DNA of 64,000 nucleotides from Thermus oshimai DSM 12092 (GTDB lineage: Bacteria > Deinococcota > Deinococci > Deinococcales > Thermaceae): NCBI RefSeq assembly GCF_000373145.1, contig NZ_KB890623.1, positions 1 through 64,000 on the forward strand, read 5' to 3'. Position 1 is the first letter of the stretch. Every line of letters starts with the position of its first letter. Shown piece after piece: positions 43,744-54,705 of the stretch. Under the pieces are notes generated by a model. It ran no database searches. It was not told the origin of the DNA and saw nothing but the letters and a program-made list of their open reading frames with translations. The position numbers and the translations under genes are program-made.

Positions 43744-44607
43744 ATGCGGGTCCTGGTCATCGGCGGCACGGGGTTCCTCGGGGGGTATGTCCTTAAGGCC
43801 CTCCTGGAAAGGGGCCACACCCCCCTGGTCCTGGCCCGCCGCCCCCGCCCCCTGCCCGAAGGGGTCCGGTACCTTCCTGGGGACATCACCCGGGAGGTGC
43901 CCGACCTTAGAGGGGTGGAGGCCGTCTTCTACCTGGCGGGGATCATCCGGGAGCGGGGCCAGACCTTCCGGGAGGTGCACGTGGAGGGGGTGCGGAACAC
44001 CCTGAGGGCCATGGAGCGCTCCGGGGTGGACCGCCTGGTCCACCTCTCGGCCCTGGGGGCGAGGAGGGGCACGGGAAGCCGCTACTTTGAGACCAAGGCC
44101 GAGGCGGAAGCGCTCATCGCCCAAAGCGGCCTAAAGGCCACCCTCCTCCGCCCGAGCCTCATCTTTGGCCCGGGGGACGAGTTTTTTGGAAAGATCCTGA
44201 GGGGCCTGGTCTGCCAGCCCCTCCCCTTCGTGCCCCTCCTGGGGGATGGGGGCTTTCCCTTCCGGCCCGTCTACGCGGGGGACGTGGCGGAGGTGGCCGT
44301 GGGGGCCTTGGAAAAGGGGGTCTTTGGCCCCTTGGACCTGGTGGGGCCCAAGGAGTACACCCTTAGGGGCCTTCTGGAGCTCGTGATGGAGGCGGTGGGC
44401 CGGAAGAAGCCCTTCTTTCCCATCCCCCTTCCCCTCCTGGACCTCCTGGTTCCCCTCCTCTCCCCCCTGCCCTTCGCCCCCATCACCCTGGACCAGTACC
44501 GGATGCTCAAGCTGGGGAACACCGCCCCCTTCCCCGAGGCCCTAAAGGGCCTCCTCCCGCGCCCCACGCCCCTGGAGGAGGTCCTGCCCCGCTACCTCCG
44601 GTGCTAG
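43744..44607 (+). CDS. NAD(P)-binding protein, NDUFA9-like epimerase family
   Basis: Extended SDR of 287 residues. The Rossmann loop VIGGTGFLGGYVLKALLERGH is at 5-25; the usual catalytic Tyr-x3-Lys is represented by SRYFETKAEAEALI, which retains Y and K, and LRPSLIFGPGDEFF follows. The C-terminus resembles NDUFA9-type quinone/NAD proteins and carotenoid-linked reductases. It is the last gene of the litR operon. Substrate unknown. The last 66 bp overlap the convergent transporter gene. Confidence 0.85.
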   Translation: MRVLVIGGTGFLGGYVLKALLERGHTPLVLARRPRPLPEGVRYLPGDITREVPDLRGVEAVFYLAGIIRERGQTFREVHVEGVRNTLRAMERSGVDRLVHLSALGARRGTGSRYFETKAEAEALIAQSGLKATLLRPSLIFGPGDEFFGKILRGLVCQPLPFVPLLGDGGFPFRPVYAGDVAEVAVGALEKGVFGPLDLVGPKEYTLRGLLELVMEAVGRKKPFFPIPLPLLDLLVPLLSPLPFAPITLDQYRMLKLGNTAPFPEALKGLLPRPTPLEEVLPRYLRC

Positions 44608-45753
44608 GCGGCAAAGGGGCCTGAGCCGCATCCCTAAGGCGGTGCCCAAGAGGGCGGCAAGCCCCCAGACGTAGCCGTGGAGGCTGAAGGAGGCCACCCC
44701 GCCTAGGTAGGCCCCGATGTTGCACCCGGAGGCCAGCCGGGCCCCATAGCCCATGAGCACCCCGCCCAGGAAGACCCCGAGGAGGGTGGATAGGGGAATC
44801 CGGCGGGGGTCCTGGAAGCGGAGGTTGCCCCCCAAGGCCGCCCCCAGGAAGGCCCCCAGGAAAAGCCCGAAGTCCATGACGCTGGTGGGGTCCTGGAGGA
44901 CGCTTCCCATGAGCCTCTCCGCGAACTCCGGGGCCTGGAAGAGGGCCCAGTCCAAGACGGGGACCCCCAAGGCCTCCGCCAGCTTCCCGCCCCAGAGGGC
45001 GAAGGCCGAGGTGATGCCCCACGGCCGCCCCAAAAGGAGCAGGGTGAGGAGGCTTCCCAGGGCCAGGGCCAAGGCCCCCACCCCCAAGGACCAGGGCCCA
45101 AAGAGGGGGTGGCCCTGCCCCTGCCAGAGGGGCTCCACCCGCCCCCTGCGCGCCCGCTCCACCCGGGCCACCAGGAGGTAAAGCCCGAGGAGAAGGGCCA
45201 TCCAAAGGGCGTAGCCCAGAACCGCCCCCCAAGGCCCCCCGAACCACTCCAGGGCGCTGCCCGGGGCCAACTGGGGCAGGCCCTGCCAGTAGGGGAGGTG
45301 GAAGACCCCGAGCAGGGAGCCCACCATGAACCCGAGGAGGGTGAAAAGCCCCCGGGTGTCCCCGCTCCCCGTGTGGTAGAGGGTGCCCGAGGCGCACCCG
45401 TCCCCAAGCTGCATCCCGATTCCGAAGAGGAAGGCCCCCAGGAGGAGCCCCACCCCCAGGGGCACCACGAACCCCGAGGCCATCCCCGTGGCCAGGAAGG
45501 GGGCGAAGAGGGTGGCGGTGAGGGCGAAGAGGAGGAAGTGGGCCCGGATCAGGCGGCTTTCCCCCGTGAGGAGGAAGCGCCGGAAGCCCGAGGCGAAGCC
45601 GAAGCGGGCGTGGAAGAGGGCCAGGCCCAGCCACACCCCAAGCCAGAAGGCCAGGACCAACCTTAGGCCCCCCGCCTGGAGGACGGCCCAGGAGAGGGCC
45701 AGGGCCGAGAGGCCGAAGACCAGGAGGGGTAAGGGTTGGGGACGCCGCGCCAT
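44542..45753 (-). CDS. YeeE/YedE-family sulfur-compound transporter
   Basis: The 403-residue membrane protein has about ten TM helices and two conserved Cys motifs, GDGCASGTLYHTGSG and ARLASGCNIGAYLGGVASFSLHGY, as in YeeE (TsuA), which imports thiosulfate. The start is placed at ATG 45753 because the longer ATG 45768 lies in the promoter. It follows the molybdoenzyme operon on the same strand but has its own promoter and is preceded by a terminator. It may bring in or move reduced sulfur linked to that system (inference). Confidence 0.88.
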   Translation of the reverse strand: MARRPQPLPLLVFGLSALALSWAVLQAGGLRLVLAFWLGVWLGLALFHARFGFASGFRRFLLTGESRLIRAHFLLFALTATLFAPFLATGMASGFVVPLGVGLLLGAFLFGIGMQLGDGCASGTLYHTGSGDTRGLFTLLGFMVGSLLGVFHLPYWQGLPQLAPGSALEWFGGPWGAVLGYALWMALLLGLYLLVARVERARRGRVEPLWQGQGHPLFGPWSLGVGALALALGSLLTLLLLGRPWGITSAFALWGGKLAEALGVPVLDWALFQAPEFAERLMGSVLQDPTSVMDFGLFLGAFLGAALGGNLRFQDPRRIPLSTLLGVFLGGVLMGYGARLASGCNIGAYLGGVASFSLHGYVWGLAALLGTALGMRLRPLCRLAPEVAGQDLLQGRGAREEAL

Positions 45754-45759
45754 GGCTTC

Positions 45760-45787
45760 AATATACATATGAGCACATTAAAGTCAA
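45760..45787 (-). promoter_or_regulatory. Promoter of the YeeE-type transporter
   Basis: On the minus strand: -35 TTGACT (45782-45787), a 16-nt spacer and -10 TATATT (45760-45765). The ATG at 45753 is 6 nt from the -10, so the message is leaderless. Confidence 0.7.
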
Positions 45788-45850: not shown

Positions 45851-46411
45851 TTAGAAGGCGAAGTCCTCCACGTACCAGCGCTCGGTCTTCTTGTGCTCCT
45901 CCTTGGGGTCCATCTTTTCCGCGTGGGCCAGGAGGAGGATGAGCTTCCGGCCGGCGGCGAGGTCCACGTCGGTGGGCTCCCCGGTCTTCAGCTTCCGGCT
46001 CCACTCCACACTCCAGCGGCCCCCCTCGTGGGTGGCGGCGCTGGCCAGGATGGAGTTCTTGCCCCCCTCCTTGTCGTCGGGTACGGGCGCGCCGGTGCGC
46101 TTGGTCTGGTACATGTCCAGGGCCACCAGCTTGCCCCCTTCCAGGTAGAAGAGGTACTGGTCCGCCCCCTGCTTCTTGTTGGTCTTCTCCGAGAGGAACC
46201 CAACCCCGATCCAGCCCTTGCTCTCGCCCTCGAGGGCCAGGTAGAGGGTATCCCCCACGATGCTCCAGTAGAGGGTGATCCCCGACTTATCGTGCTTGTA
46301 ACTCTTGGCGTACTCGCCCGCGGCGATCTTGCCGTCCACCTTGGGGGCCTGCGCCAGGGCCAGGCCCAACGCCACCATCCCGAACCAGAGTAGGCCTTTG
46401 ATCTTCTCCAT
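45851..46411 (-). CDS. Secreted DOMON-domain protein, putative heme subunit of the molybdoenzyme
   Basis: The 186-residue protein starts with a Sec signal peptide (MEKIKGLLWFGMVALGLALAQA). The remainder is a DOMON-type beta sandwich: DGKIAAGEYAKSYKHDKSG, GDTLYLALEGESKGWIGVGF (the usual GWIGVGF strand), and YLFYLEGGKLVALDMYQ. DOMON domains in dehydrogenases carry heme b or a sugar; candidate Met/His/Lys ligands exist, but none can be assigned. It is the last gene of the operon, three bases from the preceding 4-TM gene. An electron-transfer role outside the membrane is inferred. Confidence 0.8.
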   Translation of the reverse strand: MEKIKGLLWFGMVALGLALAQAPKVDGKIAAGEYAKSYKHDKSGITLYWSIVGDTLYLALEGESKGWIGVGFLSEKTNKKQGADQYLFYLEGGKLVALDMYQTKRTGAPVPDDKEGGKNSILASAATHEGGRWSVEWSRKLKTGEPTDVDLAAGRKLILLLAHAEKMDPKEEHKKTERWYVEDFAF

Positions 46412-46413
46412 GC

Positions 46414-46863
46414 TTACCTCCCGTCCCGTATGGTTATCCCCACCACAAAGGCCACGGCCCCCACGTGGGTGTGGGCCAAAGCCGCCAGCACCGGCCGGCT
46501 TCCTTTAAAAGCCTCCAGGAACCCCGAGAGGCTCCAAAGGCTCACCTCCGCGTCCTGGGCGTTCCAGAGGAGGTGGTAGTAGGCCCCCAGGACCCCGGTG
46601 AGGACGCTCGCCAGCATCCAGAGGAGGAAGGGGTAGCGCACCCAGGGCCCCCGGTGGAAGAACATGAGGAAGGTCAAGGGGGCCCCCACCAGGGAGACGT
46701 AGAAGGGGATGCGGCTCTGCCAGCTCTCCGTCCAGTGGTCCAGGACCCAGTGCTCCATGCCGTAGAAGAGGAACCCCACTAGGGCGATGAGGAGGAAGGT
46801 GCTCTGCAGGAACTCCAGGAGGCGCTCCTCCTCGGTTTGGGCTTTGATGAGGGCTTCGATCAT
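46414..46863 (-). CDS. 4-TM membrane protein, second of two paralogues (putative cytochrome b-like subunit)
   Basis: The 149-residue protein has about four TM helices (near 20-38, 53-70, 77-98, 123-143). It shares with the preceding gene HWTExWQSRIPF, ASVLTGxLGAYxHLLWN and GSRPVLAALAxTH. The conserved His are 43, 97 and 133, with additional His at 38, 70 and 131. I do not recognise the family. With these His in or near TM ends, b-type heme binding is possible. It lies 12 bp downstream of its paralogue and 2 bp from the DOMON gene. Confidence 0.85.
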   Translation of the reverse strand: MIEALIKAQTEEERLLEFLQSTFLLIALVGFLFYGMEHWVLDHWTESWQSRIPFYVSLVGAPLTFLMFFHRGPWVRYPFLLWMLASVLTGVLGAYYHLLWNAQDAEVSLWSLSGFLEAFKGSRPVLAALAHTHVGAVAFVVGITIRDGR

Positions 46864-46875
46864 CCTGCACCTCCT

Positions 46876-47313
46876 TCAGCGGGCCCGGTAGATGGAGAGG
46901 AGGCCCGTGACCCCCATGTGGGTGAAGGCTAGGGCCGCCAAAACCGGCCGGCTTCCCGCCATGGCCTCCATGGCGGCTGCAAAGTCCCAGTCCACCTCCC
47001 CCTCAAAGTTCCAGAGAAGGTGGAAGTAGGCCCCCAAGGCCCCGGTGAGCACCGAGGCCCACATGGTGAGGAGGAAGGCCCAGCGCACCCAGGAGGTCTT
47101 CCGGTCAAAGAGCACCCACAGGGTGAAGATAAACCCCGGCACCGCCACGAAGAAGGGGATGCGGCTTTGCCAGGCCTCCGTCCAGTGTTCCAAAAGGAGG
47201 AGCTCCAAAGGGTACATGACCCAGCCCACCAGGCAGAGGAGGAGCATCACCGTGCGGATGAACTCCAGCGCCCACCGGGCTTGGCCTTTTGCTTCGCGCA
47301 GAGCGGGAATCAC
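46876..47313 (-). CDS. 4-TM membrane protein, first of two paralogues (putative cytochrome b-like subunit)
   Basis: The 145-residue protein has four predicted TM helices and the shared motifs LEHWTEAWQSRIPFF, WASVLTGALGAYFHLLWNF and GSRPVLAALAFTHMG. The conserved His are 43, 98 and 132. GTG 47313 is preceded by AAGGAGGTGAAG, a strong Shine-Dalgarno. It may anchor the molybdoenzyme and exchange electrons with quinone in place of an NrfD subunit; this is inference from context. A strong hairpin separates it from the catalytic gene. Confidence 0.85.
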   Translation of the reverse strand: MIPALREAKGQARWALEFIRTVMLLLCLVGWVMYPLELLLLEHWTEAWQSRIPFFVAVPGFIFTLWVLFDRKTSWVRWAFLLTMWASVLTGALGAYFHLLWNFEGEVDWDFAAAMEAMAGSRPVLAALAFTHMGVTGLLSIYRAR

Positions 47314-47399: not shown

Positions 47400-50300
47400 C
47401 TAGACAGGGATGAGGTTGACCTTGGTCTCGTAGAAGACCACGCTACCCCCCACGGTGTCCGTGAGGGCCATGTCCTTCAGGTAGGGGTCCAGGCGCATGG
47501 CGGCGTTGGCGTGGACCCCCTGGGCCCGGCGGGGGTCCCCCTTGAGGACCTGCCCGTTCACCACGATGTCTGTGGCCCCGTAGGCCCAGTGGCCCCAGCC
47601 CAGGGCGAAGGACACGCACCCCGGGCGCATCCCCTGGACCACCTTCACCTTCCCCACCATGGGCTTCTTGCCGAAAGGCCCCAGGTCCCACTCCCCTTTG
47701 GGGTTGGTGGCGGAGACCACCCTGACCTTCTGCCCGTCCTTAAGGCCCAGGCGCTGGGCGTCTTCCGCGCTCACCAGGAGGGCGTTTTCCGGCTTGATGC
47801 TGAGGAGCCAGTAGTTGCTTACGGTGCGGCTCTTGGTCTGGAGGATGTCCCGGTGGGTGAGGAGGGTGAGGCCGTAACCGGGGTCGGCGAGGGGGTTCCC
47901 CAGGACGTCCCGGTAGGGGGGGAGGTAGGTGGGCAGGGGCCCGTAGGGCTTCCCGGTCATGGCGTTCTTGGAGAGGAGCTGCTTCTCCAGGAAGAGATTC
48001 ACCTGCTTCCCGTAGCGGTTGGCCACCAGGTCGTTCTGGGCGTAGGCCTTGGCGAACTCCTGGAAGCGCCCGCCCCGGTTCAGGAGGTAGACCACCCGCC
48101 TAAAGAGCCCCTCGTCCCCCACCGCTTCCCGCCAGCGGTTCTCGTCAAAGACCGAAGGGGGGAGGTGGCGGCGGGCCTTCCGGAAGACCTGAAGCTCCCT
48201 CTCGTCCGCCTCGGGCAGGGCCTCCGAGCCGTCCGCCTTCTCCCCGAAGGCCAGGTTGGCCGCCAGCTTCAGGTAGAAGTGGTCCATGTGGGTGAAGGGC
48301 ATGCCGTTGGCGAAGCCCTTTTCCCCGAAGCCCGGAACCCCAAGCCGCTCCGCCAGGGCCAGGAGGAAGCTTTCCAGAGAGATGGGCATCCGCTGGCCGA
48401 AGACCTCCACCTCCTCGGGGATGGGGGGGATGGCGGGCTGGCGCACGGGCTGGACCTTCCAGATGATGGAGGGGTGGGAGCCGTGGAACTCCCAGCGCTC
48501 GAGGTAGGAGAGGTCGGGGATGATGTAGTCCGCGAAGAGGTAGGAGTCCCCCACCACGATGTCAAAGGCCACGATGAGGGGGATCTGGTCCGGGTCCAGC
48601 ATGGCCCGGATCTGCTCGTGCCCGCCCGGAAGGGCGTAGGCCGGGGAGCCCATGTAGTGGAAGAGAATCTTCACCGGGTAGGGGTAGCCCTGGGCCGCGG
48701 AGGGCAGGATCTCCTGGTAGACGTCCGAGGCGTGGGGGTACCAGGGGCGCTTGGCGGGGTAGCCCTGGAAGAGGGTGGTGTCCTCGTACTTCACCTCGTG
48801 GCGGATGAGGCTGATGCCGAAGGGGCTTAGGGGCTTGGGGTGGAGCTTGCTTAAGGCGAAGGGCCCGCCCGCCTTGCCCCCGGTGATGTCGTAGGTGCTG
48901 GCCTGGACGAACCCCCCCTGGTGGTCCAGGTTGCCCACGAGGACGTTCACCGCAAACCAGGCGAAGACGTTGTAGAAGCCGTTGGTGTGCTGGCTGGCCC
49001 CCCGGTGGACGTCCACCACCGCTTTCTTGCCGTACTGGGCAAACTTCTCCGCCAGGAAGCGGATGTCCTCCTCCCTCACCCCGGCGAGGGCGGCCCAGGT
49101 CTTCACCTGGTGCTTGAAGGCCTCTTCCTTTAGGAGCTGGAGGGCGCTTTTCACCGGGATCCCCTCCAGGCGGGTGTCCACGAAAAGCTCCCCGAAGGCC
49201 GCCTGGGTTTCATCGTTGGGGTTGAAGGCCAGGGGCCGCCCTTGTGCCAGGACCACGGGGGCGTCCAGCTCCACCTCCTTGTCCCCCACCTTGGCCTTGG
49301 GCTTGGGAAGGCCCAGGTCGCTGGCCCTGAGGAGCCGTTCTGGCTGGCCGTCTTTCATCTTCACCAGCCAGGCGGCGTTGCTCCAGGTGCTTTCCCCGAT
49401 GGCCTTGGCCGCGGCCTTGTTGGCGGCGGAGAGGAAGCGGCGGTCAATCTTGTCCCACTCCAGGAGGAGGCGGATGACCCCGAGGGCGATGGCCGCGTCG
49501 TGGCCCGGCTTGGGGGCGATCCAGCGGCTGGCCCCCTTGATGCCCTTCTGCCCCCTGGGGTCCACGATGGCGTACTCCAGTTCTCCCTTGGCCGCCCGTT
49601 CCGTGATCCAGCCCACCCGCAAGGGGGGCCCGTAGTTCCCCTCGAAGACGTTGGCCCCCACGAAGACCACGAAGCGGGCCTTGGAGAGGTCCGCCTGCCA
49701 GTAGAACTTGGCCCCCCCAGACCAGGAGAGCTTGCCCGAAGCGTCAAAGGTGGGCTGCTCGCTCATGGCCTTGCCGGTGAAGTACATGGAGCCCTGGCAG
49801 ACGGTGGTGTGGCCGTGGAGGTTCACGGTGCCTAGGCCCTGGCCGAAGAACCAGCGGATGAACTCGCTCCGCCCCGCCTTGAGCCGGCCCCAGGCGAAGA
49901 CCACCTGGTTGTTCTTGGGCCCCAGGTCGGGGTGGTCGGGGTGGATGAGGGTGTGGAGGTGTTCCCTGAAGTCTTCCTTGAACTTCTCCACCAGCGCCTT
50001 TTTCTTGGCGGGGTCCTTCTCCGCCCAGATGGCCTTCACCGCGTCCCCCATGGCCTTCATCACCTGGGGGTCCCGGAGGGCCCAGACCTCCTTAAGGCCG
50101 GGGTAGTGGCGTTCGTCGCCGATCTCCTTGAAAAGCTGCCCCCCCTCCACGATCTCCCGCACCGCCTGCTCAAAGGGGATCTCCACCCACTTGCCGCTGC
50201 CCCGGGGGCCGGCCCGCTTCAGGACCCGGCGGACGCGGTAGGGGTCGTAGGCGGTCTGGATGCCCGCCTGGCCCTTGGGGCAGAGGGCCCCGTCCACCTT

Positions 50301-50585
50301 GGCCAGGGTCTCTAGGTCCGTATTCAGGGGCAGGTGGGGCCGGAAGGTCCAGGGGGAGAGGGGGTTGCCGTCCATCTTGGCCGCCACGCCCTCGTAGAGC
50401 TTCACCTTGATGGGGCAGCCGGTGTTGCACTGGAGGCAGGAGGAGTAGATGGTGTTTTCGGGGAGCTGGACCTCGTAGGCCAGGCCCCCTTGGGCCGAAG
50501 CCTCCTGCAGGGCGAGCCCCAAGGGGCCAAGAAGGGCGCCCGCCCCCGAAAGCTTGAGGAGTTCACGCCGGGAAACCTTTTCCAT
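47400..50585 (-). CDS. Molybdopterin oxidoreductase catalytic subunit (TtrA-like, Tat-exported)
   Basis: DMSO-reductase-family enzyme of 1061 residues. The Tat signal is VSRRELLKLSGAGALLG (about 4-20). An N-terminal [4Fe-4S] site is C50-x2-C53-x3-C57-x44-C102. The Mo ligand is predicted as Cys263 in HTTVCQGSMYF, as in tetrathionate, arsenate and polysulfide enzymes rather than Ser (DMSO) or Asp (Nar). The C-terminal pterin-binding domain includes LVSAEDAQRLGLKDGQKVRV. Its partner ferredoxin lies directly upstream. Tetrathionate or another sulfur/arsenic oxyanion is plausible; the substrate is unproven. Confidence 0.9.
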   Translation of the reverse strand: MEKVSRRELLKLSGAGALLGPLGLALQEASAQGGLAYEVQLPENTIYSSCLQCNTGCPIKVKLYEGVAAKMDGNPLSPWTFRPHLPLNTDLETLAKVDGALCPKGQAGIQTAYDPYRVRRVLKRAGPRGSGKWVEIPFEQAVREIVEGGQLFKEIGDERHYPGLKEVWALRDPQVMKAMGDAVKAIWAEKDPAKKKALVEKFKEDFREHLHTLIHPDHPDLGPKNNQVVFAWGRLKAGRSEFIRWFFGQGLGTVNLHGHTTVCQGSMYFTGKAMSEQPTFDASGKLSWSGGAKFYWQADLSKARFVVFVGANVFEGNYGPPLRVGWITERAAKGELEYAIVDPRGQKGIKGASRWIAPKPGHDAAIALGVIRLLLEWDKIDRRFLSAANKAAAKAIGESTWSNAAWLVKMKDGQPERLLRASDLGLPKPKAKVGDKEVELDAPVVLAQGRPLAFNPNDETQAAFGELFVDTRLEGIPVKSALQLLKEEAFKHQVKTWAALAGVREEDIRFLAEKFAQYGKKAVVDVHRGASQHTNGFYNVFAWFAVNVLVGNLDHQGGFVQASTYDITGGKAGGPFALSKLHPKPLSPFGISLIRHEVKYEDTTLFQGYPAKRPWYPHASDVYQEILPSAAQGYPYPVKILFHYMGSPAYALPGGHEQIRAMLDPDQIPLIVAFDIVVGDSYLFADYIIPDLSYLERWEFHGSHPSIIWKVQPVRQPAIPPIPEEVEVFGQRMPISLESFLLALAERLGVPGFGEKGFANGMPFTHMDHFYLKLAANLAFGEKADGSEALPEADERELQVFRKARRHLPPSVFDENRWREAVGDEGLFRRVVYLLNRGGRFQEFAKAYAQNDLVANRYGKQVNLFLEKQLLSKNAMTGKPYGPLPTYLPPYRDVLGNPLADPGYGLTLLTHRDILQTKSRTVSNYWLLSIKPENALLVSAEDAQRLGLKDGQKVRVVSATNPKGEWDLGPFGKKPMVGKVKVVQGMRPGCVSFALGWGHWAYGATDIVVNGQVLKGDPRRAQGVHANAAMRLDPYLKDMALTDTVGGSVVFYETKVNLIPV

Positions 50586-50594
50586 GGCTACCTC

Positions 50595-51425
50595 CTACAC
50601 CAGGTAGTACACCCGGGGCTTGGTGCCCGCTTCCTCCTTAAGCCGGATGGCGTTGGGGGACTTGGCCAGGTGGTGGACCAAGGAGGCGGGGTCCTCCAGG
50701 TCCCCGAAGAAGGTGGCGCGCCCGATGCAGGTGGTGACGCACTGGGGAAGGAGGCCCTGGGAGATCCGGTGCAGGCAGAAGTGGCATTTGCGCACCTTGT
50801 CCATGGGGCCGGCCTCGTCCTCCCGGGCCACCTTCTTGCCCCACTCGTAGACGGGAAGGGTTTCGTAGGGCATCTCCCCCTGGCCCGGGGTCCTTTCCGT
50901 CCAGTAGGCGCCATCGTCCTTGTGGCGGGCGCCATAGGGGCAAGGGGGGATGCACTTTTCGCACCCCACGCAGAGCTCGTAGTCGATCTCCACGATGCCG
51001 TCTTCCCGCTTCCAGGTGGCGTCGTAGGGGCAGGCGGGCACGCAGGGGGGGTCGTCGCACTGCATGCAGGGACGGGGGACGAAGCGGTAGGTGACGTTGG
51101 GGTAGGTTCCCACCTCCTCCTCCGTCACCGGCCGGTAGACCACGCCCGGGGGAAGGCGGTTTTCCGCCATGCAGCTCACGGTGCAGGCGTGGCAGCCCAC
51201 GCACTTCCTGAGGTCGATCACCATGCCCCAGCGGCGCTTGGGGTTTTTAAGCGCCCGCTCCAGGTCCTCCTGCATGCGCAGGAGGACGTCCTTGTCCTCC
51301 CCCGTGGGGGGCGGGGTTTGGGGCAGGGCCTGGGCCAGGCCCGGGGCCACCATGGAGGCGAAGACGGCGCTGGCGAACTTGGAGAGGAAGCGCCGCCGTT
51401 CCTCCGGATTCAGGGGTTGTTCCAT
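50595..51425 (-). CDS. Four-cluster ferredoxin subunit of the molybdoenzyme (TtrB/PsrB-like)
   Basis: The 276-residue electron-transfer subunit has four Cys motifs: [50 protein letters not shown] and [21 protein letters not shown]. This is the DmsB/TtrB type with four [4Fe-4S] clusters. The N-terminus ([22 protein letters not shown]) looks like its own Tat signal, which fits TtrB-like proteins working on the periplasmic face. It is the first gene of the operon, 9 bp before the catalytic gene. Confidence 0.92.
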
Positions 51426-51563
51426 CGCCCACCTCCTTTCGCCTTCAGGCTAGGCTTGGGCCTAAGGGGGCGGTAGCGGGCGGTCTTTGGACGGGCTTGT
51501 CCGGGAGAAGGCGGACAGGGGCGAGGACATTTATACCCCTTAGCCTCTTCTAGGCTGGGGTTG
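51426..51563. promoter_or_regulatory. Divergent control region of the molybdoenzyme operon and its sensor operon
   Basis: This region holds TATAAAT on the minus strand (51529-51535) and TAGGCT on the plus strand (51551-51556), 7 nt before ATG 51564. Between 51489 and 51528 are four GGAC-type half-sites: GGAC 51489, GTCC 51499, GGAC 51513, GGAC 51525. One pair forms TGTCCG-N8-CGGACA (51498-51517). A further inverted repeat, TAGGC-N4-GCCTA, is at 51452-51465. No good -35 boxes are visible, consistent with activator control. Confidence 0.5.
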
Positions 51564-52400
51564 ATGCGGGGGCTTGGGGTCTTGGCGCTTCTTCTTGCGG
51601 CCTGCGCCCGCCCGCCGGAGGTGGCGCTGGCCCCGCCCTACGCCCCCGAGGCCCCCACGGGGACGGTCCGGGTGGTGGTGGCGGGGATGCGCTCCCCCAA
51701 GGAGGCCAAACCCTACCGGGCCCTCTTCCAGGGCCTGGGGGAGTGGCTCGGGGTGCGGGTGGAGGTCTTCGGCCGCCGCACTTATGGGGAGGTCCTCGAG
51801 GCCCTGCGCCAAGGCCGGGCCCATCTGGGCTTCCTCTGCACCCTGGCCGCGGGGCTCGGGGCGGAGGAGGGGGTTTTGGAGGTGCTCCTGGCCGGGGAGA
51901 CGTTCGTGCCCTACCAGAGCCTGGTGGTGGTGCGGGCCTCCTCCCCTTACCGCACCCTGGCGGATCTGAAGGGCCTCCCCTTTGCCTTCACCGACCCCCT
52001 TTCCAACACCGGCCACGCCTGGCCTAAGCTGGCCGCCCGGGGTCTCGGGGAGGGGTTCTTCGCCCAGGCCTTCTTCGCTTACCACCACGACCGGGCCCTC
52101 TTGGCCGTGCTCCAAGGCCTGGCGGAGGGGGCGGCGGTGGACCGGGTGGTGTATGAAACCCTGGGCCTCTCTGGGCTGCGGGTGGTTTGGCGGGGGCCCA
52201 CCGACCCCCCGCCCCCCATCGTGGCCCGCAAGGGGCTGGACCCTGGCCTTAAAGACCGCCTCTTAAAGGGTCTTCTCGCCTACGCCGGCACCCCGGAGGG
52301 GCAGCGGGTTTTGCGGACGCTGGGCCTTAAGGGGTTCCGGCCCGCAGAGGCTTGGGACTACGTGCGGGTGTACCGCCGGGCGGAGGAGGTGTTGCCGTGA
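51564..52400 (+). CDS. PhnD-like periplasmic binding lipoprotein, sensor component
   Basis: The 278-residue lipoprotein has the lipobox LLLAACARPP (Cys about 14). The rest matches the phosphonate/phosphite-type binding fold (PhnD): TGTVRVVVAGMRSPKEAKPYRALFQGLGEWLGVRVEVF, ALRQGRAHLGFL, VVVRASSPYRTLADLKGLPFAFTDPLSNTGHAWP. No transporter genes follow. Instead a kinase and regulator are coupled to it (GTGA), as with AioX/ArxX and the PhnD domain of TtrS. It probably binds the substrate oxyanion and signals to the kinase. Confidence 0.85.
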   Translation: MRGLGVLALLLAACARPPEVALAPPYAPEAPTGTVRVVVAGMRSPKEAKPYRALFQGLGEWLGVRVEVFGRRTYGEVLEALRQGRAHLGFLCTLAAGLGAEEGVLEVLLAGETFVPYQSLVVVRASSPYRTLADLKGLPFAFTDPLSNTGHAWPKLAARGLGEGFFAQAFFAYHHDRALLAVLQGLAEGAAVDRVVYETLGLSGLRVVWRGPTDPPPPIVARKGLDPGLKDRLLKGLLAYAGTPEGQRVLRTLGLKGFRPAEAWDYVRVYRRAEEVLP

Positions 52401-54085
52401 GGTGGGGGCTCGTCCACCAGCTCTTCGCCACCCTGCTCCTCTCGGCCCTGGTCACAGGGGGGGTGCTCATCCTGGGCGGGGCCACCTTCCTTTGGGCGGA
52501 GGGGGAGAAGGCCCTTTGGCAGCGGGCTCGAGGCGCGGCCCAAGACCTGGCCGCCCTCCTTGCGGACGACCTCCTCCTGGGGGACCGCTTTTCCGCCTGG
52601 GAGCGGCTCCGCGCCGCCCAGGCCCGCGATCCAGACCTGGCCTACGCCTACGTGCTGGACCCGGAGGGCTGGGTCCTGGTGCACACCCTGGAGGGGGGGG
52701 TGCCCGAGGCCCTTCGGGCCCTGGGGGGGGAGAGGACGCTGAGCCTAGAGGGCCAGACCGTCTACCAGACCGAGGCGGAGATCTTTGGGGGGCAGATCGG
52801 TCGGCTCCGCCTGGGGTTCTACCAGGCCCCTCTCTGGGCGGAGGTGGGCCAGGTGGCGCGCACAGGGCTTTTCGGTCTTCTCTGGGCCGTGGGCCTGGGG
52901 GGCGGGCTCGGGTACTTCCTCCTTCTCAGGCACCTGGAGCCTCTGAGGGCCATGACCGAACGGGTGGCCCGGGTGGGCCAGGGGGAGGCCCCGGTCTTCC
53001 CCGAGCCCAAGAACGAGCTTGGGCTTTTGGGCCGGGCCCTGAACGAGATGGGCCAGGCGGTGGCCCAGCAAAGGCGCCAGCTCCTCCTCCTAAACCGCCT
53101 CCTGGCCGAGGCCCACGCCCTAAGGCTGGAGGAGCTGGCCGAGCGGGTCCTTTCCCTCCTCACGCGGGAGCTGGGCTTTTTGTGCGGGGACCTCTGGGTG
53201 GAGGGCCGGGTGGTCCACTGCCGGGCCTGCCAGCGCCTCTGCCCCCTGGGGGCGGTGGGCCCCCTGGCCGAGGAGGCCCTCCGCCGGGGCCAGGTGGTGG
53301 TGGCCCCCGGGGGGGTGGCGGTGCCGGTGCCGCCCAGGGGGGCCCTGGTCCTCCACGGCGCCCCCCAGGTGGAGGAGGCCTGGCTGAGGGAGTTTCTGGG
53401 GGCCCTTTCCCTGCCCCTGGCCTCGGCTCTGGAAAACGCCCGGCTCTACGGCCTCCTGGAGGAAAAGGAGCGCCAGCGGGCCCGGCTCATGAGCGCCTGG
53501 CTGGCCGCCCAGGAGGAGGAGCGGGGGCGGCTGGCCCGGGAGCTCCACGACGAGATCGGCCAGGCCCTCACCGGCCTCCTTCTGGGGTTGGAAAGCCTTC
53601 CCGGGTCCGAGCCCCTAAAGGAGCTGGTCCGGCGCACCCTGGCCGAGGTGCGCCGCCTGGCCTGGGACCTAAGGCCAAGCGTCCTGGACCACCTGGGCCT
53701 CAAGGCGGCCCTGGAGCGCTACGTGCGGGAGTTTTCCGAGCGCACGGGGATCCGGGTGGACCTTTCCTTCCACCTCCTCCACCCCCTGCCCCGGGAGTGG
53801 GAGACCGTCATCTACCGGGTGGTCCAGGAGGCCCTGACCAACGTGGCCCGGCACGCGGAGAGCCCCTGGGCGGCGGTGGGGGTTTTGGAGGCGGAGGGGG
53901 AGGTGCGGGTCTTCGTGGAGGATGGGGGCCGGGGCTTCGTGCCCGAGGCGGTGGAGGCGGGCCGGCAGGGGCTTTTGGGCATGCGGGAGCGGGTGGAGCT
54001 GGTGGGGGGCCGGTTCCTGCTGGAAAGCGCCCCCGGCCGGGGCACCTGGATCCAGATCCGCCTGCCCCTGGAGGTGAAGGCGTGA
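52397..54085 (+). CDS. Sensor histidine kinase, NarX/NreB type with four-Cys cluster
   Basis: The 562-residue kinase has TM1 (about 8-28), a periplasmic part to about 155, TM2 (near 158-180), then HAMP and a GAF-like region. Within it are Cys263, Cys275, Cys278 and Cys282 (CRACQRLC), a possible Fe-S or redox site. The HisKA_3 motif RLARELHDEIGQALTGLL has His384, and the ATPase domain has VVQEALTNVARHA and GLLGMRERVELVGG. GTG 52397 overlaps the lipoprotein gene. It should phosphorylate the next gene's regulator in response to the PhnD-like protein, redox, or both. Confidence 0.9.
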   Translation: MRWGLVHQLFATLLLSALVTGGVLILGGATFLWAEGEKALWQRARGAAQDLAALLADDLLLGDRFSAWERLRAAQARDPDLAYAYVLDPEGWVLVHTLEGGVPEALRALGGERTLSLEGQTVYQTEAEIFGGQIGRLRLGFYQAPLWAEVGQVARTGLFGLLWAVGLGGGLGYFLLLRHLEPLRAMTERVARVGQGEAPVFPEPKNELGLLGRALNEMGQAVAQQRRQLLLLNRLLAEAHALRLEELAERVLSLLTRELGFLCGDLWVEGRVVHCRACQRLCPLGAVGPLAEEALRRGQVVVAPGGVAVPVPPRGALVLHGAPQVEEAWLREFLGALSLPLASALENARLYGLLEEKERQRARLMSAWLAAQEEERGRLARELHDEIGQALTGLLLGLESLPGSEPLKELVRRTLAEVRRLAWDLRPSVLDHLGLKAALERYVREFSERTGIRVDLSFHLLHPLPREWETVIYRVVQEALTNVARHAESPWAAVGVLEAEGEVRVFVEDGGRGFVPEAVEAGRQGLLGMRERVELVGGRFLLESAPGRGTWIQIRLPLEVKA

Positions 54086-54705
54086 TCCGGGTGGTGCTGG
54101 TGGAGGACCACGCCCTGGTGCGCACGGGGCTTAAGCACCTCCTGGAGGCCCGGGGGGTGAGGGTGGTGGGGGAGGCGGGGAGCGGCCTCGAGGCCCTGGG
54201 CCTTCTGGAGGGCCTGGAGGCCGACGTGGCCATCCTGGACGTTGCCCTGCCGGACATGAACGGGATAGAGCTGGCCCAGCGCCTAAGGGCCCGTTTCCCC
54301 CACCTCAGGCTTCTCGCCCTTTCCATGCACGAGGACCTGGAGTACGTGCGGGGCTTCCTCCAGGCGGGGGGGCAGGGGTACGTGAGCAAGGGGGCGGTGG
54401 ACCACGAGCTTCTGGATGCCCTCCTCACCGTGGCCCGGGGGGGGCGCTACCTCAACCCCGCCCTGGCCATGCGCCTGGCGGTGGAGCTGGTCCAGAAGGA
54501 GGGGGAGGAGGCCCCCCTCTCCCCCCGGGAGGAGGAGGTCCTCCGCCTTTTGGCCCAGGGCCTTTCCCACAAGGAGGTGGCCGAACGCCTGGGGATTTCC
54601 GAAAAGACCGTGGCCACCTACCGGGAGCGGGGCATGGAGAAGCTGGGCCTGAAAAGCCGGGGCGAGCTCCTCCGCTACGCCGCCCGCAAGGGCTGGCTCG
54701 GCTAA
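54082..54705 (+). CDS. NarL/FixJ-family response regulator
   Basis: The 207-residue regulator has the receiver motif VAILDVALPDMNG with Asp53, Lys in YVSKGAVDHE, and the LuxR-type helix-turn-helix LSPREEEVLRLLAQGLSHKEVAERLGISEKTVATY. GTG 54082 overlaps the kinase stop (GTGA). The obvious target is the molybdoenzyme promoter, where GGAC half-sites occur. Confidence 0.94.
   Translation: MIRVVLVEDHALVRTGLKHLLEARGVRVVGEAGSGLEALGLLEGLEADVAILDVALPDMNGIELAQRLRARFPHLRLLALSMHEDLEYVRGFLQAGGQGYVSKGAVDHELLDALLTVARGGRYLNPALAMRLAVELVQKEGEEAPLSPREEEVLRLLAQGLSHKEVAERLGISEKTVATYRERGMEKLGLKSRGELLRYAARKGWLG

Follow-up and report, generated by a model that had tools for sequence, protein, structure and literature searches.

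To our knowledge, iron-sulphur molybdoenzymes are linked to the membrane by few kinds of subunit, mainly NrfD-like proteins and di-haem cytochromes b. In the window, the stretch of 64,000 nucleotides of Thermus oshimai DNA analyzed here, genes for a TtrA-like and a TtrB-like protein are followed by genes for two small membrane proteins, A145 and B149, and a secreted DOMON protein (gene order ttrB-ttrA, then A-B-DOMON). The locus raises the question of what such a pair of membrane proteins does beside a molybdoenzyme. The genes concerned are the following.

44542..45768, minus strand: YedE/TsuA-type sulphur transporter (Pfam Sulf_transp, 5.8e-57)
45851..46411, minus strand: secreted DOMON protein, 186 aa, directly after B149
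46414..46863, minus strand: B149, four-helix membrane protein and paralogue of A145, 149 aa, ATG start
46876..47313, minus strand: A145, four-helix membrane protein, 145 aa, GTG start
47400..50585, minus strand: TtrA-like molybdopterin subunit (NCBIfam TtrA, E 1.3e-118), twin-arginine-like N-terminus
50595..51425, minus strand: TtrB-like 4Fe-4S subunit (NCBIfam TtrB, E 1.4e-51)
51561..52400, plus strand: PhnD-like periplasmic binding protein, divergent (Pfam Phosphonate-bd, 1.1e-46)
52352..54085, plus strand: histidine kinase (HAMP, HisKA_3 and HATPase domains)
54082..54705, plus strand: response regulator, LuxR/NarL-like by eye, completing a two-component system

The locus resembles TtrABC systems in its TtrA and TtrB homologues, divergent PhnD-like protein, kinase and regulator, and a quinone-linked membrane part is expected in both. 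It differs in that TtrC/NrfD is missing and two four-helix proteins without NrfD similarity, together with the DOMON protein, are found instead. TtrA and TtrB were the best NCBIfam models for the two enzyme subunits, yet the scores were under the curated cut-offs (397 against 1750 bits and 175 against 416 bits, respectively). The TtrA clade also contains selenate and arsenate reductases (PMC10100899). The PhnD-like protein probably acts as the sensor component in a TtrS-like system, and the response regulator is conserved beside ttrBA in relatives. The sulphur transporter is a frequent, not a constant, neighbour of the A-B-DOMON module in Thermus.

A145 and B149 belong to an unnamed membrane protein family

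An earlier note on this DNA had described A145 and B149 as tandem paralogous proteins with four transmembrane helices. This description was borne out by the reading frames, by 53% identity over 136 aligned residues (BLASTP), a likeness not due to chance given the E value of 2e-43, and by AlphaFold2 models with four long helices each (pLDDT 91.7 for B149 and 79.3 for A145). The three motifs quoted as shared (HWTExWQSRIPF, ASVLTGxLGAYxHLLWN and GSRPVLAALAxTH) were all found in both proteins, and the positions given for His43 (both proteins), His97 of B149/His98 of A145 and His133 of B149/His132 of A145 were correct.

The earlier note had not recognized the family, and database searches agreed. 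Neither protein matched a Pfam or NCBIfam model above any curated cut-off, a negative that leaves room for distant relatives which sequence profiles may miss, and neither matched the cytochrome b561 families in Pfam. Searches of the PDB by sequence gave nothing usable: the single match for B149 (phmmer, E up to 10) was TRIC (5h36_E, E 0.77), and the top match for a joint profile of A and B (hmmsearch) was CorA (E 0.34). Comparison of the wider-family alignment with an NrfD alignment by hhalign indicated no homology (probability 0.7%, E 0.077, 26 columns). At the level of structure, Foldseek returned nothing at E <= 0.001. The top VIA-align match was a copper storage protein for B149 (Z 11.7, rmsd 2.5, 100 aligned residues) and an Fc epsilon receptor complex chain for A145 (8k7t_B, Z 11.3, rmsd 4.3, 129 aligned residues). 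Both scores were under the level that separates helical bundles and give no ground for a copper-storage reading of B149. The haem proteins among the listed fold matches were designed bundles; natural membrane cytochromes were absent from the lists, which excludes nothing. All in all, the fold matches are to generic helix bundles and decide nothing. A145 and B149 are members of a real and conserved family that has no name.

In a survey of 111 Deinococcota genomes, matches were found in 34 with the A+B profile A3 and in 40 with profile A4. A and B co-occur in the order A-B, as expected for a heterodimer. Beyond Deinococcota, the four-helix family is known from Actinomycetota plasmids only, with members on Nonomuraea and Rhodococcus plasmids (tblastn); a search of a plasmid collection with B149 itself gave no match. 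Relatives of the pair stand in other neighbourhoods, of which examples are listed here.

L130:11346-15004 (also L168-L174, L176 and L177): conserved cytochrome-linked cluster in Thermales, in the order YceI, five-CxxCH cytochrome c7-like protein, four-helix protein, OmpR-type regulator, kinase
L165:5655-9553: helix-hairpin-helix-linked arrangement in Trueperaceae, in the order secreted helix-hairpin-helix protein, four-helix relative, regulator, kinase
L196:5456-8730: similar arrangement on a Rhodococcus plasmid, first protein without a Pfam match

The first protein of the Rhodococcus arrangement is a short secreted protein that precedes the four-helix relative and resembles the helix-hairpin-helix protein by eye only. 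Profile comparisons between groups with no rows in common connected the helix-hairpin-helix-linked type to B (E 1.4e-9), to A (E 1.8e-13) and to the cytochrome-linked type (E 1.3e-9). The direct comparison of B with the cytochrome-linked type was weak (E 0.0014, probability 18%). Comparison of alignment A1 with alignment A5 was discarded as proof of relatedness, since A5 includes rows from the window and the argument would be circular.

In a tree of A, B and their relatives, B formed one clade (support 100/100). A was not resolved as one clade (two label changes needed; a single clade in 1% of the bootstrap trees), and the tree therefore leaves the A/B split undated. Both subfamilies contain Thermaceae as well as Trueperaceae. 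Two further genes were noted near members of the family: the gene of a Fur-family regulator, which in one Trueperaceae locus immediately precedes A (L041:6964-7434), and a rhodopsin-like reading frame, recognized by eye only, that lies within a few genes of the module of the Thermus genome G020 (L091:14461-15306).

TtrC is absent from Ttr loci of the window's clade

TtrA was found in 27 of the 111 Deinococcota genomes. One TtrA match, in a fragmented draft genome (G025:C65, L195), contains four in-frame TGA codons. Among the Ttr loci of Deinococcota that were read, those outside the clade of the window have an NrfD gene (ttrC) beside ttrA, with ttrB on its other side where the sequence allowed a reading; the exceptions are G035 (L135), where ttrA is a 437-aa fragment, L123, where TtrB was uncalled, and L187, where a long NrfD frame overran the TtrB region. 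The TtrA clade that includes the window has a support of 100/100 and comprises 12 rows with 9 distinct sequences, and some of the rows are the same genome drawn from two collections. No member has NrfD in the locus. In 11 of the 12 rows, A-B-DOMON follows directly after ttrA. In the remaining row (G028, L122), a TtrC-less ttrBA and A-B-DOMON are located on separate contigs, and both have been kept. No NrfD/TtrC was found in the window's locus. The only NrfD match of the genome lies on contig C2 in another operon, which by eye is similar to alternative complex III, and such a match was present in 16 of 16 tested Thermaceae, both those that have Ttr and those that lack it. The absence of TtrC beside A-B-DOMON is more interesting than the question of haem in the pair, on which the earlier note had centered.

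Our preferred reading, to which we assign a probability of a little under one half (about 0.48), is that an A-B heterodimer and the DOMON protein pass electrons between the quinone pool and the periplasm, and that they replace TtrC in the window's clade. Against it, the location of A-B-DOMON beside ttrBA could be due to chance or to shared regulation. Co-occurrence with ttrBA is expected anyway because the genes are physically linked, and only one genome (G028) offers an unlinked case.

A-B-DOMON without any ttrA was found in Thermus (G013, G016, G020, G022 and G023), in Meiothermus (G078) and in eleven Trueperaceae genomes, and the module is therefore not an obligate part of Ttr. In G022, short kinase and regulator fragments lie directly upstream of A-B-DOMON (L133:8259-10349), as if ttrBA had been lost. 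An apparent break in the DOMON gene of this genome was dismissed, since an open 186-aa frame spans the site. Maintenance of the module with open genes in many genomes without ttrA, including one Thermus in which the regulatory fragments suggest that a ttr locus was lost and A-B-DOMON kept, would also suit an independent system that merely neighbours ttrBA, such as a periplasmic ferric reductase, for which the eukaryotic DOMON-cytochrome b561 proteins offer an analogy. TtrAB would then be fed in another way, for example by a soluble cytochrome. We regard such independence as rather unlikely: the well-supported TtrC-less clade coincides with A-B-DOMON linkage, and G028 has retained the trio in trans.

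The DOMON protein is a candidate haem subunit

The protein encoded downstream of B149 contains a DOMON domain (PF03351, E 1e-16, 61.7 bits against a cut-off of 32.7) behind a signal-like N-terminus. Across the 111 genomes surveyed, a DOMON gene adjoins A-B wherever the pair is present; the sole exception is G085, which has a contig end there. His173 was invariant in 13 DOMON rows. Position 80 was a lysine in all rows linked to A/B and a methionine in three Deinococcota DOMON proteins encoded away from A/B. By analogy with DOMON proteins in general, Lys80 and His173 are the likely haem ligands, and Lys/His ligation would be predicted for the A/B-linked DOMON proteins, if they bind haem.

The only PDB sequence match of the DOMON profile was NxrC, the gamma (haem) subunit of nitrite oxidoreductase (E 9.4e-5), in an alignment of 40 columns that includes neither position 80 nor position 173. 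A match to TIGR03477 was weak (E 0.042). The protein shares with EbdC and NxrC, the gamma haem subunits of type II enzymes of the DMSO reductase family, that a secreted DOMON-like subunit adjoins molybdoenzyme genes. It differs from them in having Lys80 and His173 at the likely ligand positions, and in its association with a catalytic subunit that is TtrA-like and not of type II. A literature search for Thermus with DOMON gave, among the titles listed, none on the subject. Judging from its sequence, the DOMON protein is a probable b-type haem subunit and the clearest haem candidate of the operon.

Conserved residues point to one side of the membrane

In the A145 subfamily (24 rows), the invariant putative ligands were Glu37, His43 and His98. 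The B149 subfamily (24 rows) had invariant Glu37, His38, His43, His97, His131 and His133, with His131 found in B only. When A and B were aligned jointly, the invariant putative ligands were Glu37, His43 and His97. The wider family (25 rows from three neighbourhood types) keeps Glu37, His43, Gly93, His97, Pro124 and Ala127, and among putative ligands invariance was again limited to Glu37, His43 and His97. Of the three histidines that had been proposed as conserved, two (His43 and His97/98) are thus invariant family-wide. The third, His132 of A145, is an asparagine in 7 of 7 Trueperaceae rows, so that one of the three A145 histidines is lost in close homologues, a finding that the earlier note had named in advance as speaking against its proposal. 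The histidines listed in that proposal are present, but the list omitted the invariant His38 and His131 of B149 and Glu37 of both proteins.

In the helix map from the AlphaFold2 model of B149, the conserved histidines are found where TM1 ends, in the late part of TM3 and in the early part of TM4, all on one side of the membrane. Loop 2-3 is positively charged and loops 1-2 and 3-4 are acidic, and the side with the conserved Glu and His residues is therefore probably periplasmic. Because all conserved histidines are on one side, a two-haem bundle with one haem near each membrane face is unlikely. As to the heterodimeric eight-helix haem bundle suggested at first, the co-occurrence of A and B in the order A-B agrees with a heterodimer, and the one-sided histidines are unlike those of a classical two-haem bundle. 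Haem in A/B now appears less likely than first proposed.

A reading of A and/or B as b-type cytochromes would place a periplasmic-side haem on His43 and His97, or on His97 and His131 in B, and it could also be one form of the electron-transfer module proposed above. It draws on the invariance of His43 and His97 in 25 rows from three neighbourhood types, on the central position of His97/98 on the conserved, non-lipid face of TM3, which also carries Gly90 (a face analysis of TM4 gave no clear answer), on the similar depth of His97 and His131 from the periplasmic helix ends in the B149 model, and on the redox proteins encoded nearby (DOMON, TtrA/TtrB). We nevertheless consider it unlikely, as the third histidine of A145 is lost in Trueperaceae, His131 is limited to B, the model puts His43 past the end of TM1, and Glu37 is equally invariant, so that a metal or proton site fits equally well.

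Such a site is the core of another explanation, in which A and B would not carry electrons but would bind a metal or protons as a membrane pair, or act as a sensor-linked anchor, and the module would only assemble or anchor the DOMON protein, with Glu37, His43 and His97 serving metal binding or proton transfer. The family invariants are indeed Glu-His-His, more than a pair of histidines; many relatives adjoin an OmpR-type regulator and a kinase, and in one Trueperaceae locus a Fur-family gene directly precedes A. The constant linkage to DOMON, the link of one clade to ttrBA without the usual quinol-reactive subunit and the multihaem cytochrome neighbour in Thermales argue in the other direction and make this explanation, in our judgement, fairly improbable.

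A possible electron route to TtrAB

In the preferred reading of the module as an electron link that replaces TtrC, A and B would form a heterodimeric integral membrane module with the conserved Glu and His residues toward the periplasmic side, working with the secreted and putatively haem-bearing DOMON protein encoded directly downstream. In the window's clade, electrons would pass from quinol through A/B to the DOMON haem, on to the iron-sulphur clusters of TtrB and finally to the molybdenum site of TtrA, perhaps within a physical complex with TtrAB. We infer that the module would in this way do the job of the NrfD-type TtrC. The twin-arginine-like N-terminus of TtrA and the signal-like N-terminus of DOMON should place these partners on the predicted Glu/His side of A/B. 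The YceI and five-CxxCH cytochrome c7-like proteins beside the wider-family relatives in Thermales speak for a redox role; against it, the helix-hairpin-helix proteins and two-component systems beside other relatives are not obvious redox partners.

A and B need not carry a cofactor themselves. NrfD subunits consist of two four-helix bundles and are free of redox cofactors (PMC8076601), and the data are consequently as compatible with a cofactor-free A-B pair as with one that bears haem. If A and B form a dimer, they would likewise comprise two four-helix bundles in total, and the pair would copy the general NrfD architecture. Like NrfD-like subunits, the pair adjoins iron-sulphur molybdoenzyme subunits. 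It differs from them in the lack of profile similarity, in being encoded by two genes instead of one and in its conserved residues (Glu37, His43 and His97).

DOMON-cytochrome b561 proteins likewise join a DOMON domain to a small helical partner in the membrane, and the arrangement in the window differs from them in having separate genes. A broader version of the replacement idea, which we offer tentatively and as a doubtful extension, is that A-B represents a new quinol-reactive class of membrane module, a heterodimer of four-helix units with a site formed by Glu37, His43 and His97, which is linked to a Lys/His-ligated DOMON cytochrome, replaces NrfD in a molybdoenzyme complex and serves other periplasmic redox partners as well.

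If it is true that a small unnamed pair has been swapped for NrfD in one clade, the clade would be a natural experiment on what the membrane anchor of such an enzyme needs in terms of quinone contact, electron path and proton handling. A membrane family without a name, found in Deinococcota and, according to tblastn, on Actinomycetota plasmids, would also gain a function. The A-B-DOMON trio may represent a novel type of connection between a respiratory enzyme and the membrane.
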